From the NCBI GenBank assembly GCA_937867335.1, contig CALMKX010000322.1, positions 1-35,079 on the forward strand: a stretch of DNA of 35,079 nucleotides. The letters run 5' to 3'. Origin of the DNA: an uncultured Acidobacteriota bacterium. Its GTDB lineage: Bacteria > Acidobacteriota > Thermoanaerobaculia > Multivoradales > SZUA-115. The notes below the pieces were generated by a model, which was not told where the DNA came from, made no database searches, and saw only the letters and a program-made list of their open reading frames with translations. A program made the translations under genes and the position numbers. Shown piece by piece: positions 8,000 through 18,196 of this stretch (positions are counted from its first letter, which is position 1; each line of letters opens with the position of its first letter).

Positions 8000-9022
8000 G
8001 TGGCCCGGGGGGCGTTTCCCGGCGGGGTGCTGGCTGTGGGCCGGCGGGGCGAGGTCGCGCATTTCCTGCCCTTCGGCCGCCTGCGCTACGAGCCGGAGGC
8101 TCCGGCGGTCGAGGCCGACACGATCTACGACCTCGCCAGCCTCACCAAGGTGGTCGCCACTACCACCGTGGCGATGATCCTCGGCGAAGAAGGGCGGTTG
8201 GAGTTGGACCTGCCCGTGGCCACGTACCTGCCCGGCTTCGTCGGCCCGGGTAAGCGGCAGGTGACGGTGCGCCAGCTGCTCTCCCACTCCGCGGGCCTCG
8301 CGGCCTGGGCGCCGCTCTATCTCGAGGCTCGCGGGCCCTCGGCCTTCCTCGAGCGCATTCTGGCGATGGCGCTCGCGTACCCGCCGGGCAGCCAGTCGGT
8401 CTACAGCGACCTGGGCATCCTGCTGCTGGGCGAGATCCTCGAGCGCGCTTCGGGTACGCCGTTCCGTCGGCTGGTCGAGAGCCGGGTGCTCGAGCCGCTG
8501 GGCCTCACCGAAACCGGCTTCCTTCCCGGGCCGAGCCTGCTGCCGAGAATCGCCCCCACCGAGCTCGACTCGAGCTTCCGCCACCGCCTGCTGTGGGGTG
8601 AGGTGCACGACGACAACGCCTTCGCCCTGGGCGGCGTGGCTCCCCACGCGGGCCTCTTCGGCACCGCTCCAGACCTCGCCCGCTTCGCCACGATGATGCT
8701 CGAGGGCGGAGCCGATCCGGGTGGCCGACTGGTCTCGGCCGAGACCGTGGCGGCGTTCACCCGGAACGCCGGTGTGCCGGGCTCGAGCCGCGCGCTCGGC
8801 TGGGATACCCGGTCGCCGGAGGGTTCCTCCGCCGGCAGCCTCCTCTCCCTCCGCGCCTACGGCCATACCGGGTTCACCGGCACTTCGCTGTGGATCGACC
8901 CGGAGCGAGAGATCTTCGTGCTCCTGCTCACCAACCGTGTGCACCCCAGCCGCGACCGCGAGCTGATCCGCGAGGCTCGGCCGGCGCTGGCGGATGCTGC
9001 CGTCCGCACCCTCGAAATCTGA
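8000..9022 (+). CDS. Serine hydrolase, class C beta-lactamase / PBP-like family
   Basis: 340 residues from GTG 8000, but this start is doubtful. The frame is open back to 7880, and the residues before 8000 (AEAHALALDFVARGAFPGG) look like the usual N-terminal helix of the family. No ATG, GTG or TTG occurs there; a CTG at 7907, with GAGAG upstream, is the best alternative. Motifs: S47-L-T-K50 (nucleophile SxxK), Y135-S-D137 (YxN-type, with Asp instead of Asn), and H289-T-G (third box). The C-terminal IFVLLLTNRVHPS is typical of PF00144 esterase/peptidase members. The substrate is unknown and no signal peptide is visible. It lies 100 bases after xth on the same strand. Confidence 0.88.
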   Translation: MARGAFPGGVLAVGRRGEVAHFLPFGRLRYEPEAPAVEADTIYDLASLTKVVATTTVAMILGEEGRLELDLPVATYLPGFVGPGKRQVTVRQLLSHSAGLAAWAPLYLEARGPSAFLERILAMALAYPPGSQSVYSDLGILLLGEILERASGTPFRRLVESRVLEPLGLTETGFLPGPSLLPRIAPTELDSSFRHRLLWGEVHDDNAFALGGVAPHAGLFGTAPDLARFATMMLEGGADPGGRLVSAETVAAFTRNAGVPGSSRALGWDTRSPEGSSAGSLLSLRAYGHTGFTGTSLWIDPEREIFVLLLTNRVHPSRDRELIREARPALADAAVRTLEI

Positions 9023-9142
9023 AGCCTGGAGAGCATTCGGCGTTTTCCGGTCGAGCTCGGCTGCCTCGAAACACCGCCCGGCTGCACCTTTGGAGTAACG
9101 ACCTGGAGAATTCGCTCTGGGCCCAATCGGGAGACAGCCATC

Positions 9143-9469
9143 ATGTCGATCCATCCTCTGCCGAAGCTCGCCCGCCTTGGCCTCCTCAGCGTCGCGGTGC
9201 TCTTGATCGCGTCGACCGTCGCCGCTTCCGCCTGCGCTCTGCCGCTGTGCAACGCAAGGTTCTGCTCCGGTTTGTGCTCTCAGAAGTGCCAGCTGCTGGA
9301 TGGCACCAAAACCAGCTGTGGAGCGCAGTATCCGGACATTTGCATTCCGGCGGCCGCCTCGAGCGAGCTGGTCTGCAACGACGCAAGCACCGGGGCCGAG
9401 CTGCAAGCGAGCGTTTCGACCGCCTCGGCGCCGGAATCGCTCTCTACCGTGTCTTTCGATCACCCTTGA
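9143..9469 (+). CDS. Small Cys-rich secreted protein, unknown function
   Basis: 108 residues. A clear signal peptide covers residues 1-31 (LARLGLLSVAVLLIASTVAASA). The mature part carries eight cysteines after the signal region, mostly in an N-terminal knot (CALPLCNARFCSGLCSQKC), with others further along. GGGAGA lies about 8 bases upstream of the ATG at 9143. Its last codons run into the promoter of the leucine operon. I do not recognise a family. The cysteine spacing suggests a disulphide-stabilised exported peptide; no function is claimed. Confidence 0.6.
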   Translation: MSIHPLPKLARLGLLSVAVLLIASTVAASACALPLCNARFCSGLCSQKCQLLDGTKTSCGAQYPDICIPAAASSELVCNDASTGAELQASVSTASAPESLSTVSFDHP

Positions 9470-9494
9470 CAGCCCATCGTGAGTGATCTATTCT
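9466..9494 (+). promoter_or_regulatory. Sigma-70 type promoter of the leucine operon
   Basis: A perfect -35 TTGACA (9466-9471) is separated by exactly 17 bases from -10 TATTCT (9489-9494). Transcription would start near 9501-9504, at or just before the leader peptide ATG (9504), so the leader mRNA would be leaderless or nearly so. The promoter overlaps the last codons of the small Cys-rich gene. Confidence 0.75.
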
Positions 9495-9503
9495 CCGCCC
9501 ACC

Positions 9504-9650
9504 ATGTCGAGCGCCGCCATGCTTCTCGCTGATTCGCTCACGCCGCCCGCGCTCGGCGTTCGCTCGCTCGCCAACATCGCTGCCATTCTGCCGCTCCTGC
9601 TGATTCTGCTGGGCCTGCTGCTGGCCCTGGCCAATCCGGGGGCGACGTAA
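9504..9650 (+). CDS. Leucine-rich leader peptide of the leu operon attenuator
   Basis: 48 codons followed by TAA. About 15 codons are Leu, with 3 Ile and 1 Val. Codons 29-42 read L-P-L-L-L-I-L-L-G-L-L-L-A-L, so ten of fourteen specify Leu. The ORF lies directly downstream of a strong promoter, ends 30 bases before an intrinsic terminator, and precedes leuA. That is the arrangement of leader peptides controlling branched-chain amino acid operons by attenuation, such as leuL of enterobacteria (there about 28 codons with four adjacent Leu). No Shine-Dalgarno site is visible. ATG 9504 is almost at the predicted transcription start, suggesting leaderless translation. ATG 9519 (codon 6) is an alternative start. 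The hydrophobic stretch could also be read as a membrane helix, so a small membrane protein is the alternative reading. Confidence 0.7.
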   Translation: MSSAAMLLADSLTPPALGVRSLANIAAILPLLLILLGLLLALANPGAT

Positions 9651-9690
9651 ACCACCTGAACGAACACAAGGTTGTTTCCAAAGCCCCCGG
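9636..9690 (+). promoter_or_regulatory. Candidate antiterminator pairing in the leu leader
   Basis: CCGGGGGC at 9636-9643, within leader codons 45-47, is an exact copy of the terminator's 3' arm core (9699-9706). It is fully complementary to the 5' arm GCCCCCGG (9683-9690). A ribosome stalled on the Leu cluster (9588-9629) would leave 9636-9643 free to pair and block the terminator. A ribosome reaching the stop at 9648 would cover it and let the terminator form. Confidence 0.65.
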
Positions 9691-9715
9691 TCGAAAGGCC
9701 GGGGGCTTTTGTTTT
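9681..9715 (+). terminator. Intrinsic terminator (attenuator) ahead of the leu structural genes
   Basis: A ten-base perfect stem AAGCCCCCGG (9681-9690) / CCGGGGGCTT (9699-9708) around an eight-base loop is followed by a T-rich run (TTTTGTTTT). It lies between the leader peptide and the first structural gene on the same strand, so it must be regulated or leaky for the operon to be expressed. Confidence 0.85.
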
Positions 9716-9802
9716 GGCTCGAGGAGCCCAGCTGGAGCAAGAACGATCGCAAACTGAATCAGCGCCAAAGGCCACGGCGCACCGACAATCCGAGGATCTG
9801 TC

Positions 9803-10681
9803 ATGACGACCGCAAGGAACGTCCCGGAATGGGTGTGGCTCGATGGCGAATGGTGCGGTAGAAAACACGCAACCTTGCCGATCACCGCGTTGATCGATAC
9901 GGCGCGCTGCTTGCGCCAGAGAATTCCTTTCTTTTTCCATCCCGAAGGCGCCCGGATCTTCCGCCTGGCCGAGGCGCTCGCCGACCTCCTGCGCGCCGGG
10001 CGCCTCCTGGGAGTGCGCGCGAGCCCGGTGGCCGCGGCGCTGCTGCCGCAGGCGGCGATCGAAGCCGCGGCCCTGCACGGCGGCTCCTCGGGCTGGCTCG
10101 AGATACTGCTTCTCGCCCTGCCCGGCCTCGAGGGCGAGGAGCTTCCCCAGCTGGTGGTCTTCGCCCATTCCGCACTGCCCGGCAACGCGCCGGGAGGCCG
10201 CGGCGAGCCCCTCGACCTGGTGGTGGAGCCGCTCCCCGGCCGGAGCTTTCCGACCCAGCCCGGGGCGGAGGCCGCCTCGCCACGCCGGCGCCCCCTGGGG
10301 CCGGTCGAGCGCTGGGAGAACGACGAGGTGAGCTTCTGGCTGGAGGGGGACCGGCTCTGCACCGGGGCGGTCACCGTGCCGTTCCGGGCCCGGGTGCTGC
10401 GACAGACGCTGCTCGAGCTCGCCGCCGAGGCCGGGCTCGGCGTCGTGGAGGCGCCGCCGGAGCGCCATCGCCTGCTGCTCGCCGATGAGATCTTCGTGGC
10501 CGGCGGAGCGGCCGAGCTGCGACCGGTGGCGCGGGTGGACGGGCTGCCGCTCTCCGGGCCCTTTCCCGGCCCCTGGACCGAACGGCTCGGGCGAGCCCTC
10601 GAGCGGAGCCTGCTCGAGCCGGGGACCCACCGTGCCGAGTGGTGGACGCCCATTCCGCAGTGCGAAGGGGTGTGGGTGTAG
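9803..10681 (+). CDS. Class IV aminotransferase-like (IlvE-related) protein lacking the PLP lysine
   Basis: 292 residues; GAGGA lies about 6-7 bases before the ATG at 9803. The N-terminus (VWLDGEW, then ARIFRLAEALADLL) and the C-terminal half (FRARVLRQTLLELAAEAGL, LLLADEIFVAGGAAELRPV, GPFPGPWTERLGRALE) follow the branched-chain aminotransferase/ADC lyase fold. The central segment, which in active enzymes carries the PLP-binding Lys and the NY-x-LL stretch, is replaced by Pro/Arg-rich sequence. The only Lys in the whole protein is K21, near the N-terminus. It is therefore probably not a PLP enzyme in the usual sense. As first gene of the attenuated leu operon, three bases before leuA, it could be a regulatory or binding relative, or a degenerating ilvE paralogue. 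The frame is intact and codon use resembles its neighbours, arguing for selection. Confidence 0.8.
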   Translation: MTTARNVPEWVWLDGEWCGRKHATLPITALIDTARCLRQRIPFFFHPEGARIFRLAEALADLLRAGRLLGVRASPVAAALLPQAAIEAAALHGGSSGWLEILLLALPGLEGEELPQLVVFAHSALPGNAPGGRGEPLDLVVEPLPGRSFPTQPGAEAASPRRRPLGPVERWENDEVSFWLEGDRLCTGAVTVPFRARVLRQTLLELAAEAGLGVVEAPPERHRLLLADEIFVAGGAAELRPVARVDGLPLSGPFPGPWTERLGRALERSLLEPGTHRAEWWTPIPQCEGVWV

Positions 10682-10684
10682 GCC

Positions 10685-11881
10685 ATGGAAAGCGAGACGA
10701 TGGACCTCGTCCCGAGCACCGTTCGCATCTTCGACACCACACTGCGCGACGGCGAGCAATCCCCCGGTGCCAGCCTCACGGCGGCCGAGAAGCTCACCGT
10801 CGCCCATCAGCTCGCCCGCCTGGGGGTGGATGTCCTCGAGGCCGGCTTCCCGGCCGCCAGCCCGGACGACCTCGCCGCCGTGGCCGAGATCGCCCGCGAA
10901 GTGGGGGAGGAGGGCGGGCCGGTTATCGCCGCCCTCGCCCGTTGCGAAGAGCGGGACCTCGACCGCGCCTTCCAGGGCGTGCGCGAGGCGGCCCGGCCGC
11001 GCATCCACACCTTCCTCTCCACCTCGGACCTGCACATCGAGAAGAAGCTCCAGAGCAGCCGCGCGGAAGTGCTGCGACGGGTGGCCGCCGGCGTGGCCCA
11101 GGCCCGCTCTCTCTGCAGGGACGTCGAGTTCTCGCCGGAGGACGCCTCCCGCTCGGACCCCGGCTTCCTGGTGGAGGTGCTGGCGGTGGCGATCGAGCGC
11201 GGCGCCACCACCCTCAACATCCCCGACACCGTGGGCTACGCGGTGCCCTTCGAATACGCCGCGCTGATCGCCGAGCTGCGACGGCGCACCCCGGGAGCCG
11301 AGCGGGTGATCTGGTCCGTCCACTGCCACGACGACCTCGGCCTGGCCACCGCCAACACCCTGGCCGGCCTCGCCGCCGGCGCCCGCCAGGCCGAGGTGAC
11401 CGTGAACGGCATCGGCGAGCGGGCCGGCAACGCCAGCCTGGAGGAAGTGGTGATGGCGCTCGCCACCCGGCCCCGGTTCTACGGCTTGAGGACCGGCATC
11501 GCCACCCCCGAGCTCGCCGCCACCAGCCGGCTGGTGGCCGAGCTCACCGGCATCGAAGTGCCCCCCAACAAGGCGATTGTGGGCGACAATGCCTTTGCCC
11601 ACGAGGCCGGCATCCATCAGGACGGCATGCTCAAGGACCACCGCACCTACGAGATCCTCCGCCCGGAGAGCGTGGGGCAGAGCGGCAGCCGCCTGGTGCT
11701 CGGCAAGCACAGCGGCCGCCATGCCTTCCGGCGCCGGCTGGCCGAGCTCGGCCATGCCCTGGAAGGGGAGCGGCTCGAGCACGCCTTCGCCCGCTTCAAG
11801 GCCCTGGCGGATCGCCAGAAGCGGGTGGCGGAACCGGATCTGCTCGCCCTGGTGGAGGAGGTCGCCCATGCTGGCCGCTGA
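10685..11881 (+). CDS. leuA: 2-isopropylmalate synthase, short form without regulatory domain
   Basis: 398 residues. Condenses acetyl-CoA with 2-oxoisovalerate in the first committed step of leucine synthesis. [12 protein letters not shown] (17-28) is the HMGL-like signature with the metal Asp; H213-C-H215 in HCHDDLG and GIGERAGNA (242-250) complete the metal and substrate sites. [15 protein letters not shown] and [10 protein letters not shown] mark the linker subdomain. The protein ends shortly afterwards, so the C-terminal LeuA dimer domain (about 110-120 residues, where leucine binds in full-length 510-550 residue enzymes) is absent. It starts three bases after the aminotransferase-like gene, with only a weak ribosome site, so translation is probably coupled. 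Homocitrate or citramalate synthase are alternatives, but placement with leuCDB favours LeuA. Confidence 0.92.
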
Positions 11882-13292
11882 GCCGAGAACGCTGTTCGCG
11901 AAGATCTGGGACGCCCACCTCGTGGCCCGCGGGCAGGACGGCCTGCCGGATACCCTCTACATCGACCTCCACCTGCTCCACGAGGTCACCTCGCCCCAGG
12001 CCTTCGCCGAGCTCGCCCGGCGCGGGCTCGCCGTGCGCCGCCCGGAGCGCTGCCTGGCCACCATGGACCACGCGACTCCCACCGAACCGGGGCTCGATCT
12101 CGTGCGCCTGGCGGCGCGAGACAGCCAGGCCGCGGCCCAGCTCGAGACCTTGGCCGCCAACTGCCGCCGCCACGGCATTCCGCTCTTCGGCCTGGGCAGC
12201 GAGAGGCAGGGCATCGTGCACGTGATCGGCCCGGAGCTGGGCGCCACCCAGCCGGGCATGACGGTGGTCTGCGGCGACAGCCATACCTCCACCCACGGCG
12301 CGTTCGGCGCCCTCGCCTTCGGCATCGGCACCAGCGAAGTGGCCCACGTGCTGGCCAGCCAATGCCTGCTGCTCTCCCGGCCCCGCACGCTCCGCTTCTG
12401 GCTGGAGGGCCGGCTGGCCGCGGGTGTCACCGCCAAGGACTTCATCCTCGCCGCCATCGCCCGCTTCGGTGTGGACGTCGGCACCGGCAGCGTGCTCGAG
12501 TTCGCCGGGCCGGGCGCTGCCGCGCTGGACCTCGAGGAGCGCATGACGGTGTGCAACATGGCGATCGAAGCGGGCGCCCGGGCTGGCCTCTTCGCGCCGG
12601 ACGAGCGGACCTTCGCCTATCTCGAGGGTCGTTCTCTGGCGCCCAAGGGCGAGGCCTGGGAGCGCGCCCTCGAGGCGTGGAAGGCCCTGCCGAGCGACCC
12701 CGATGCGCGCTTCGACCGCGAGGAGAGGCTGGCCTTGGGCGAGATCGAGCCGATGGTCTCCTACGGCACCCACCCGGGCATGGCCGTGCCGATCTCCGGC
12801 CGGGTGCCGGAGCCGGGCTCTTTGCCCGAGGCCCGCCGCAAGGCCCTCGAACGGGCGCTCGCCTACATGGCTCTCGAGCCCGGGGAGCCCCTCGCCGGCC
12901 GGAGGGTGGACGTGGTGTTCCTCGGCAGCTGCACCAACTCGCGGCTGTCGGATCTGCGCCTGGCCGCGCGCCTCCTGGCCGGCCGCAAGGTCTCGCCGCG
13001 GCTGCGCATGCTCGTGGTGCCGGGCTCTCGCCAGGTGAAGCGCCAGGCCGAGGCCGAGGGGCTGGCCCGGACTTTCCTCGAGGCCGGCGCCGAATGGCGC
13101 GAACCCGGCTGCTCGATGTGCCTGGCCATGAACGGCGACCGCCTGGAGCCCGGCCAGTACGCGCTTTCCACCAGCAACCGCAACTTCGAGGGCCGCCAGG
13201 GGCCCGGCGGCCGTACCTTCCTCGCCAGCCCCGCCACCGCCGCCGCCACCGCCGTGGCCGGCCACATCGCCGATCCCCGGGAGCTGCTATGA
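11868..13292 (+). CDS. leuC: 3-isopropylmalate dehydratase, large subunit
   Basis: 474 residues, the usual length for LeuC. The start is the ATG at 11868, overlapping the end of leuA by 14 bases, with GGAGGAGG about 5 bases upstream. The aconitase-family [4Fe-4S] ligands are visible: C355 in GSCTNSR and C415/C418 in [10 protein letters not shown]. Other signatures are [36 protein letters not shown] and [11 protein letters not shown]. With LeuD it isomerises 2-isopropylmalate to 3-isopropylmalate in the cytoplasm. Homoaconitase is the nearest alternative, disfavoured by the leu gene context. Confidence 0.95.
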
Positions 13293-13924
13293 CTCGTCGC
13301 CCCTTGACCTTCGTGGAGAGCCCCGTGGCGACTTTGCGGGTGCCCGACATCGACACCGACCAGATCATCCCCGCCGCCTACCTCAAGGGCACCTCTCGCG
13401 AGGGCCTCGGAGTGGGCCTCTTCGCCCAGTGGCGCTTCGACCCAGCCGGCCGGCCGCAGCCGGACTTCGCCCTCAACCGGCCGGAGGCCGAGGCGGCCGA
13501 GATCCTCCTCGCCGGCCCCAACTTCGGCTGCGGCAGTTCGCGCGAGCACGCCGTGTGGGCCCTGGCGGACTTCGGCTTCCGGGTGGTGATCTCCAGCCGT
13601 TTCGCGGACATCTTCCAGAGCAACGCCCAGAAGAACGGCCTCCTGCCCCTCGAGCTGCCCGAAACCGAAGTGGCGGCCCTCGCCGCCGAACTCGAGCCGG
13701 AGCCCGCCGCCCTCGTGACGGTGGACATCCAGGCCTGCCGGCTGCGCACGCCCGCGGGGCGCGAGCTCGCTTTCAACCTCGATCCCTTCGTGCGGCGATG
13801 TCTGCTCGAGGGGCGGGATCCGCTCGATTTCCTGCTCGCCCAGGAAGAGGCGATTCAGGCTTTCGAGGTGGCTCATCCGGCCCGCTTCGACAGTCGCGAG
13901 CTCGGCGAGGAGGCCCGGCCGTGA
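13289..13924 (+). CDS. leuD: 3-isopropylmalate dehydratase, small subunit
   Basis: 211 residues, typical for LeuD. The ATG at 13289 overlaps the leuC stop (ATGA), so the subunits are translated in a coupled way. Signatures: [15 protein letters not shown] near the N-terminus, [17 protein letters not shown] (the swivel-domain loop that contacts substrate), [19 protein letters not shown] and [20 protein letters not shown]. It forms the heterodimeric isomerase with LeuC. Confidence 0.95.
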
Positions 13925-15003
13925 GCGCACCCGCCAAGAAGCCGCGCATCGCCCTGCTGCCGGGTGACGGCATCGGCCCCGAGGTGCTCGCCCCCGCCGC
14001 CCGCCTGCTCAGCGCGGCGGCCGCAAGGGAAGGCGTGGAGCTCGAGCTGGTGGAGGAGAGGGTGGGCGGGGCCGCCATCGATGCCACAGGGCAGCCGCTG
14101 CCCCCCGCCACCCTCGCGCTCTGCCGGGAGAGCGACGCCATCCTGCTGGGGGCGGTGGGCGGCCCTCGCTGGGCGGACCCGGCTGCGCCCGTGCGCCCGG
14201 AGCAGGGCCTCCTCGCCCTGCGCCAGGAGCTCGGGCTGTTCGCCAATCTACGGCCGGTGCGCGCGGTGCCGGCCTTGGCGGAGCTCTCCGCGCTGCGCCC
14301 GGAGCGGCTGGCCGGGGTGGATCTGCTGATCGTCCGCGAGCTCGCCGGTGGGCTCTACTTCGGCGCCCGCGGCGAGCAGGGCGAGGGCCACGAGGCTTTC
14401 GACACCCTGCCCTACAGCGTGGCCGAGGTGGAGCGGGTGGCCCGGGTGGCCTTCGCGGCGGCCCGGGGCCGCAGGGGCCGGCTTACCTCGGTGGACAAGG
14501 CCAACGTGCTCGCCACCAGCCGGCTCTGGCGCCGCACCGTGTCGCGGCTGGGCGGGGAGGAATTCCCGGACGTGGCCCTCGATCACCAGCTGGTGGACTC
14601 CTTCGCCCTGGCGTTGGTCTCGCGGCCGGCGAGCCTCGATGTGGTGCTCACCGACAACCTCTTCGGCGACATCCTGAGCGACGAGGCCGCCGTCGCCGCC
14701 GGCTCGCTCGGCCTGCTCCCCTCGGCCTCCCTCGGCCACGGCCGCCGCGGCCTCTACGAGCCCATCCACGGCTCCGCCCCGGACATCGCCGGCCGCGGCC
14801 TCGCCAACCCCCTGGGAGCCATCCTCTCCGCCGCCCTCCTCCTGCGCCAAAGCCTCGGCCTCGAGAGAGCCGCCGCAAGCCTCGAGCAAGCAGTAGAAAC
14901 TGCCCTCGACCAAGGCCACCGAACCGCCGACCTCACCCGGCCCGGCGAAGCGGCGGTCTCGACCGAAGAGATGGCCGCGGCAGTGCTGGCGGCGCTGGGC
15001 TGA
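13921..15003 (+). CDS. leuB: 3-isopropylmalate dehydrogenase
   Basis: 360 residues, the normal size. The GTG at 13921 overlaps the leuD stop (GTGA). Signatures of the isocitrate/isopropylmalate dehydrogenase family: LLPGDGIGPEV at the N-terminus, ELAGGLYFGARGE, LTSVDKANVLATSRLWR, DNLFGDILSDEAA (metal-binding Asp residues), and YEPIHGSAPDIAGRGLANP (NAD-binding loop). It oxidatively decarboxylates 3-isopropylmalate to 2-oxoisocaproate. It is the last gene of the operon. Conversion to leucine needs an aminotransferase that must be encoded elsewhere if the first gene of this operon is inactive. Confidence 0.95.
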   Translation: MSAPAKKPRIALLPGDGIGPEVLAPAARLLSAAAAREGVELELVEERVGGAAIDATGQPLPPATLALCRESDAILLGAVGGPRWADPAAPVRPEQGLLALRQELGLFANLRPVRAVPALAELSALRPERLAGVDLLIVRELAGGLYFGARGEQGEGHEAFDTLPYSVAEVERVARVAFAAARGRRGRLTSVDKANVLATSRLWRRTVSRLGGEEFPDVALDHQLVDSFALALVSRPASLDVVLTDNLFGDILSDEAAVAAGSLGLLPSASLGHGRRGLYEPIHGSAPDIAGRGLANPLGAILSAALLLRQSLGLERAAASLEQAVETALDQGHRTADLTRPGEAAVSTEEMAAAVLAALG

Positions 15004-15092
15004 GGGGTGGTGAGAGGCGCGAGCGAGCCCGCTGTAACGACTTCCGGCTCCGGGCGCCCAAGGCACCGAGGTACCGCGAGGAGTGCCCTGCC

Positions 15093-15664
15093 ATGGAACC
15101 CTACCTCTCTACACCGGTCCACGCTGCCGAAGCGGGCGCAGTCCAGGCTTCGGAGGCTCTTTTCGCAACGCTGTATCGGGACCTGCGCGGCCTTGCCCGC
15201 CGTGAGCTGGCGCGGGTGGGGCCGGGGGCGGCGCTGGGGGCGACGAGCCTCCTCCACGAGGCCTACCTGAACCTCGCCGAGCGCGAGAGCATGGCCTTTC
15301 CGGATCGCGCCCGCTTCTTCGGCTACGCAGCGCGGGTGATGCGGGGCCTGGTGATCGACGGGCTGCGGCGCCGGCACGCCCAGAAGCGCGGTGGCGGCCT
15401 CGAGATCACTTCGCTCGACGGCAAGGAGGTGGGGGCGGAAGCCCTCGCCTCTCAGGCCGAGGAGATGGAGCGGCTCGGCCGGGCCCTGGACGAGCTCGCC
15501 GCCCTGGAGCCGGAGCTCGCCCAGGTGGTGGATCTCAAGTTCTTCTGCGGCTTCACCTTCGCCGAGATCGCCAGCCACCGCGGCGTGACCGAGCGTACGG
15601 TGCAGCGCCACTGGGACAAGGCGCGGATCTACCTGCGGCGCAATCTCGGGGCGGAGCTTCCCGC

Positions 15665-15668
<4 letters not shown>
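15093..15668 (+). CDS. ECF-type RNA polymerase sigma factor, TIGR02999 (Sig-70_X6) type
   Basis: 191 residues from the ATG at 15093, with GAGGAG about 8-9 bases upstream. Region 2 spans roughly residues 20-95: FATLYRDLRGLARRELAR, ATSLLHEAYLNLAE, and FFGYAARVMRGLVIDGLRRR (-10 recognition). Region 4 spans about 125-185: LDELAALEPELAQVVDLKFFCGFTFAEIA followed by the helix-turn-helix VTERTVQRHWDKARIYLRR. There is no anti-sigma factor; instead the next gene, overlapping by four bases, is a Ser/Thr kinase. This family is commonly paired with such kinases, suggesting control by phosphorylation. TGTAACG at 15033-15039 upstream could be part of its own promoter, a weak suggestion. Confidence 0.9.

Positions 15669-18196
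<2,528 letters not shown>

Follow-up and report, generated by a model that had tools for sequence, protein, structure and literature searches.

Upstream of its leucine genes, an uncultured Acidobacteriota bacterium carries what we interpret as a ribosome-mediated transcription attenuator that senses charged tRNA-Leu, a reading to which we give a probability of roughly 0.92. The element lies in the window, the whole 35,079-nucleotide stretch of DNA analysed here. Every defining feature of classical attenuation that can be tested in sequence is present: a promoter followed by a short leader ORF in which codons for the operon's own amino-acid product abound, an intrinsic terminator between this leader and the first structural gene, as ribosome-mediated attenuation requires, and a mutually exclusive antiterminator that shares the terminator 5' arm and is kept in relatives. 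A preliminary description of this DNA had proposed a ribosome-mediated leucine attenuator, and the parts, their geometry, their conservation and covariation, and the match between leader residues and downstream operon all support that proposal. The bacterium very probably switches off its leucine genes in this way when leucine is plentiful. The features of the locus are as follows.

9466–9494, + strand: sigma70-type promoter TTGACA-N17-TATTCT (TTGACA 9466–9471, 17-nt spacer, TATTCT 9489–9494)
9504–9650, + strand: leader peptide ORF, 48 codons plus TAA (ATG 9504, stop 9648–9650), predicted leaderless
9588–9629, + strand: Leu control cluster, codons 29–42, 10 Leu; Leu/Val/Ile clusters are similarly placed in relatives
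9636–9643, + strand: antiterminator strand CCGGGGGC, inside codons 45–47 (Pro-Gly-Ala), pairing with 9683–9690
9680–9709, + strand: intrinsic terminator hairpin (5' arm 9680–9692, 3' arm 9697–9709), T-rich tail to about 9715
9803–10681, + strand: degenerate IlvE-like class IV aminotransferase, first gene, PLP lysine and further core motifs missing
10685–11881, + strand: leuA, 398 aa, without the LeuA_dimer allosteric domain
11868–13292, + strand: leuC, putative start ATG 11868
13289–13924, + strand: leuD, putative start ATG 13289
13921–15003, + strand: leuB, putative start GTG 13921

Direct reading recovered the promoter where it had been proposed, and it is the sole sigma70-like site within 8500–11000, a region in which shuffles expect 0.1. 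The leader peptide, MSSAAMLLADSLTPPALGVRSLANIAAILPLLLILLGLLLALANPGAT, is likewise exactly as claimed, with 15 Leu in 48 codons and ten of them inside codons 29–42. This is the densest Leu run in the window (10 Leu in 14 codons), the runner-up among 380 ORFs of at least 14 aa having 7. Directly 5' of the leu promoter, a 108-aa ORF, Cys-rich and signal-like at its N-terminus, occupies 9143–9469 and matches no family.

The terminator sits in the expected place, about 93 nt ahead of the first gene, and is slightly longer than the 10-bp stem attributed to it: a terminator scanner assigns 13 pairs, including one G-U, followed by a broken T-run. The copy of its 3' arm core noted earlier in the last leader codons, CCGGGGGC at 9636–9643, is indeed able to pair with the 5' arm, showing 8-bp complementarity to GCCCCCGG at 9683–9690. 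We folded the window RNA assuming a ribosome edge 12 nt downstream of the A-site codon and a polymerase just past the 5' arm. The antiterminator could form for stalls at codons 29–40 and was impossible from codon 42 through the stop. With this assumed footprint, folding bears out the proposed geometry, in which a stalled ribosome frees the copy and a ribosome at the stop masks it. Once the RNA is full-length, the terminator equals or exceeds the antiterminator in stability, and antitermination must therefore be kinetic; known attenuators likewise switch kinetically. The G-run also pairs upstream as a 1:2 protector in the window fold (P=1.0). Across 42 members, this pairing was not conserved above codon-shuffled leaders (0.89 versus 0.90), and no selected protector pairing was found.

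From this arrangement we infer ribosome stalling and leucine-dependent read-through. The transcript would begin at the leader ATG or a few bases earlier, letting a 70S ribosome load at its 5' end while synthesis continues. When Leu-tRNA is ample, the ribosome would cross the Leu cluster, reach the stop and cover CCGGGGGC in codons 45–47; the terminator 5' arm would then pair with the 3' arm, and RNA polymerase would stop near 9710–9715. With scarce Leu-tRNA, the ribosome would stall in the cluster, its A site at codons 29–40 leaving 9636–9643 free. That strand would pair with 9683–9690 ahead of 3' arm synthesis, pre-empting the terminator and allowing the operon to be transcribed.

Downstream, leuA, leuC, leuD and leuB follow in the order first reported, although the operon opens with a degenerate ilvE-like ORF. 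No internal terminator was found within 9720–15200. Family matches were above cut-off for leuC, leuD and leuB, and for leuA with one of its families. Alignment to intact IlvE of relatives showed that the first ORF lacks LHYGSSVFEG, EGAGENLF and the lysine of PLGKIGGQY, yet it is still open over 292 codons despite these losses; in one relative (G334, locus L069), an intact ilvE occupies the same slot. The window LeuA is ~145 residues shorter at its end than most relatives' LeuA, and the LeuA_dimer domain absent from it was found in both relatives scanned (L039 and L046). Another short LeuA was seen in L064. Right behind leuB, 15093–18196 encodes an ECF sigma factor (Sig-70_X6) and then a Ser/Thr kinase that includes a TPR-like region.

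In this organism's own genome (97% complete), ilvD and ilvC were not found and ilvB was not above cut-off, while 14 of 14 control genomes were positive; ilvC was absent from all three genomes of family f1. The genome keeps leuACDB without the valine/isoleucine pathway that feeds leucine synthesis, and we infer that imported valine, or the corresponding keto acid, would serve as the source of leucine. Given the missing ilvC and ilvD, the lack of a true ilvB, the degenerate ilvE and a LeuA devoid of its allosteric domain, this genome may rely mainly on the attenuator to sense leucine.

The operon aminotransferase failed as bait for relatives because it is degenerate. Searching through LeuA identified a close homologue in 41 genomes of the class. 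A Leu-rich leader and terminator occur upstream of leuA in seven class families (f1, f2, f4, f5, f7, f11 and f90). In leaders read upstream of leuA operons, the stop-to-stem distance is 21–37 nt, and the paired G-run mostly ends 6–13 nt ahead of the stop codon's end. Families f3 and f9 have Leu/Val-rich leaders ~4.5–5.2 kb upstream of leuA, where they head ilvE- or ilvD-led operons. The preliminary description had staked its reading on relatives conserving the leader ORF and the pairing; both are kept across the seven leuA families, and the pairing co-varies with the terminator.

A covariance model built from 17 branched-chain leaders gave matches at E<=0.01 in 82 of the 147 genomes of the class, some of the weak ones being plain terminators. 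Within the class it added members before ilvB, ilvD, ilvE, argG, thrA and proB. In other classes of the phylum, leaders were found before ilvB (f50, f88), ilvD (f61, f75), leuA (f88), ilvA (f36) and cimA (f50). Leader lengths across members span about 22–70 codons. Many weak matches covering only model positions 74–114 proved to be plain terminators, such as C21 of the organism's own genome, and were left uncounted. Five phylum members (L211, L212, L214, L220 and L221) were read by eye and left out of the statistics after automatic extraction failed. Two unusual arrangements were also observed: a tandem pair of branched-chain attenuators ahead of a single ilvD (L125 and L126, genomes G368 and G334), and three near-identical attenuator-like stretches ~1.5 kb apart in genome G184 (L085, around 421, 1952 and 3596 of the reversed locus), the latter excluded from counts because their leader frame is unclear.

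Covarying stems in relatives had been suggested as a check, and they were found. In an arm-swap test of 44 members with 5000 permutations, the last leader codons scored a mean of 20.0 in duplex with their own terminator arm and 17.6 with other members' arms (p=0.0002); windows shifted by 30–60 nt scored just 10–11. The GGGGGC (leader)/GCCCCC (arm) pair co-changes to GGGGGT(T)/(A)ACCCCC in L062, L070, L071, L077 and L081. Counting against the attenuation reading, the uninterrupted duplex is short in L059, L063, L079 and L083.

Leader composition follows the operon. Leu:Val is 90:21 in leuA leaders versus 148:128 in ilv leaders (Fisher 3e-7), and the top residue is Arg (25%) in argG leaders (n=3), Thr (32%) in the thrA leader (n=1) and Pro (20%) in the proB leader (n=1). 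Leaders are enriched in rare codons: CTT accounts for 29.5% of their Leu codons but for 7.8% of those in downstream genes (p about 1e-19), and ATT for 49% and 11% of Ile codons, respectively. The window leader uses mainly CTG, a common codon; the CTT enrichment of relatives is absent from it, which counts against our reading. Conservation of the control codons, another check suggested at the outset, was apparent in genus g3, where across 15 distinct leaders these codons interchange almost solely within the set Leu, Val, Ile and Met. The second codon position differs at just one of 17 codons, and CAG GGG GCT AAC TAG is invariant.

In genus g217 (L194, L135 and L138), argG is preceded by an Arg-rich leader whose start is near-leaderless and by a terminator, and these are candidate arginine attenuators; among the argG upstream regions read across class genomes, such an element occurred only in these three genomes of one genus. 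The L133 leader is a candidate threonine attenuator before thrA, which encodes a bifunctional aspartokinase/homoserine dehydrogenase, and the Pro-containing L148 leader is perhaps a proline attenuator before proB. Judged by leader composition, relatives very probably apply the same design to leucine, valine/isoleucine, arginine, threonine and perhaps proline genes.

These patterns bear on what else the locus could be. If the leader ORF encoded a small hydrophobic membrane protein with a function of its own, the hairpin would be just its terminator, and the Leu/Ile-rich run LPLLLILLGLLLALA could pass as a transmembrane helix. Among relatives, however, leader length and N-terminal sequence vary freely while the Leu/Val/Ile codons are kept, as is the stop-proximal G-run, and the same architecture bears non-hydrophobic Arg-, Thr- and Pro-rich leaders before argG, thrA and proB. 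We consider a membrane protein very improbable. Control of the terminator by something other than a ribosome, whether a metabolite-binding RNA, a T-box or an RNA-binding protein, is no less improbable, even though leu and ilv leaders elsewhere in bacteria use T-boxes, riboswitches and other elements (PMC1262725, PMC10272879). Covariance models of the Rfam amino-acid leader families and the T-box gave no match above gathering score, nor did any Rfam family reach cut-off; the best weak match by score was His_leader (25.7 bits versus 49), itself a leader-peptide attenuator. Conservation, moreover, falls on the control codons and the antiterminator copy, not on an aptamer.

It is also conceivable, with a somewhat higher though still small likelihood, that the locus is a relic: a formerly functional attenuator, now dead as the valine/isoleucine pathway has been lost and the first gene decays. 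The genome's lack of ilvD, ilvC and a true ilvB, together with the degenerate ilvE inside the operon, fits such a history. Decay has nonetheless spared the promoter, the Leu cluster, the 8-bp antiterminator and the terminator, all of which are intact and score well, and it has spared leuC, leuD and leuB, which exceed their family cut-offs, and leuA, which matches one of its families. A working leucine attenuator remains the reading we prefer.

The leader start is predicted to differ from the textbook arrangement. In the window, the ATG lies 9 nt past the -10 box, a space too short for a Shine-Dalgarno site, in agreement with the near-leaderless start first remarked upon. This placement is conserved: a good promoter (at least 9/12 matches) was found in 38 of 49 members, and in 31 of those 38 the first in-frame start falls 7–13 nt past the -10 box, most often 9–10, against a rough chance expectation of ~7%. 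We predict from this spacing that the leader peptide is translated from a leaderless start.

Accounts of leader-peptide attenuation come chiefly from Proteobacteria, Actinobacteria and Firmicutes. The classical examples, leuL of Escherichia coli and Salmonella and the trp, his, thr and ilv attenuators, combine a leader ORF rich in product codons with a terminator and an alternative antiterminator. The present system resembles these enteric attenuators in its short control-codon leader and its terminator/antiterminator pair, with rare control codons in many relatives. It departs from them in its predicted leaderless start, theirs being Shine-Dalgarno-led, in using the final sense codons ahead of the stop as its antiterminator strand, and in matching no Rfam leader model; the conserved protector (1:2) pairing of trp-type attenuators was not found here.

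Closer parallels exist in Actinobacteria. The Corynebacterium glutamicum ilvBNC attenuator (ilvB-II motif) has a 15–17-codon uORF before ilvB and an H1 hairpin acting as anti-antiterminator (PMC11857589, PMC10272879), and has been discussed in terms of leaderless mRNA initiation (PMC11857589). It shares with our system a leader rich in branched-chain amino acids and a terminator/antiterminator, but belongs to another phylum; here, leaders of ~22–70 codons serve several operons and several amino acids. The actinobacterial LEU element similarly has a run of Leu codons in an ORF upstream of leuA, but is a candidate pseudoknot in which the leuA Shine-Dalgarno site takes part (PMC1262725), whereas in the window an intrinsic terminator lies about 93 nt ahead of the first gene.

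The suggestion that such control is little described in Acidobacteriota agrees with our literature search, which returned no description of attenuators of this kind in Acidobacteria, with priority uncertain; a 2010 survey notes that hardly any attenuator predicted there had a function assigned to it (PMC2965389). The leaderless variant is apparently undescribed in this phylum, and the phylum-wide family is more interesting than the single locus. We see an even chance that the members form a hitherto undescribed class of leaderless three-segment attenuators that spans the phylum, its codon content retuned to Leu, Leu/Val/Ile, Ile, Arg, Thr and Pro. Leaderless initiation would then need neither the Shine-Dalgarno site nor the protector hairpin of trp-type attenuators. 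Together, these analyses assign a putative attenuator function, with specificity, to many Acidobacteria operons, and turn their start sites and control codons into testable predictions. They also raise a testable mechanistic question, namely how attenuation may operate if the leader ribosome loads at the extreme 5' end of an RNA that lacks a conserved protector hairpin.
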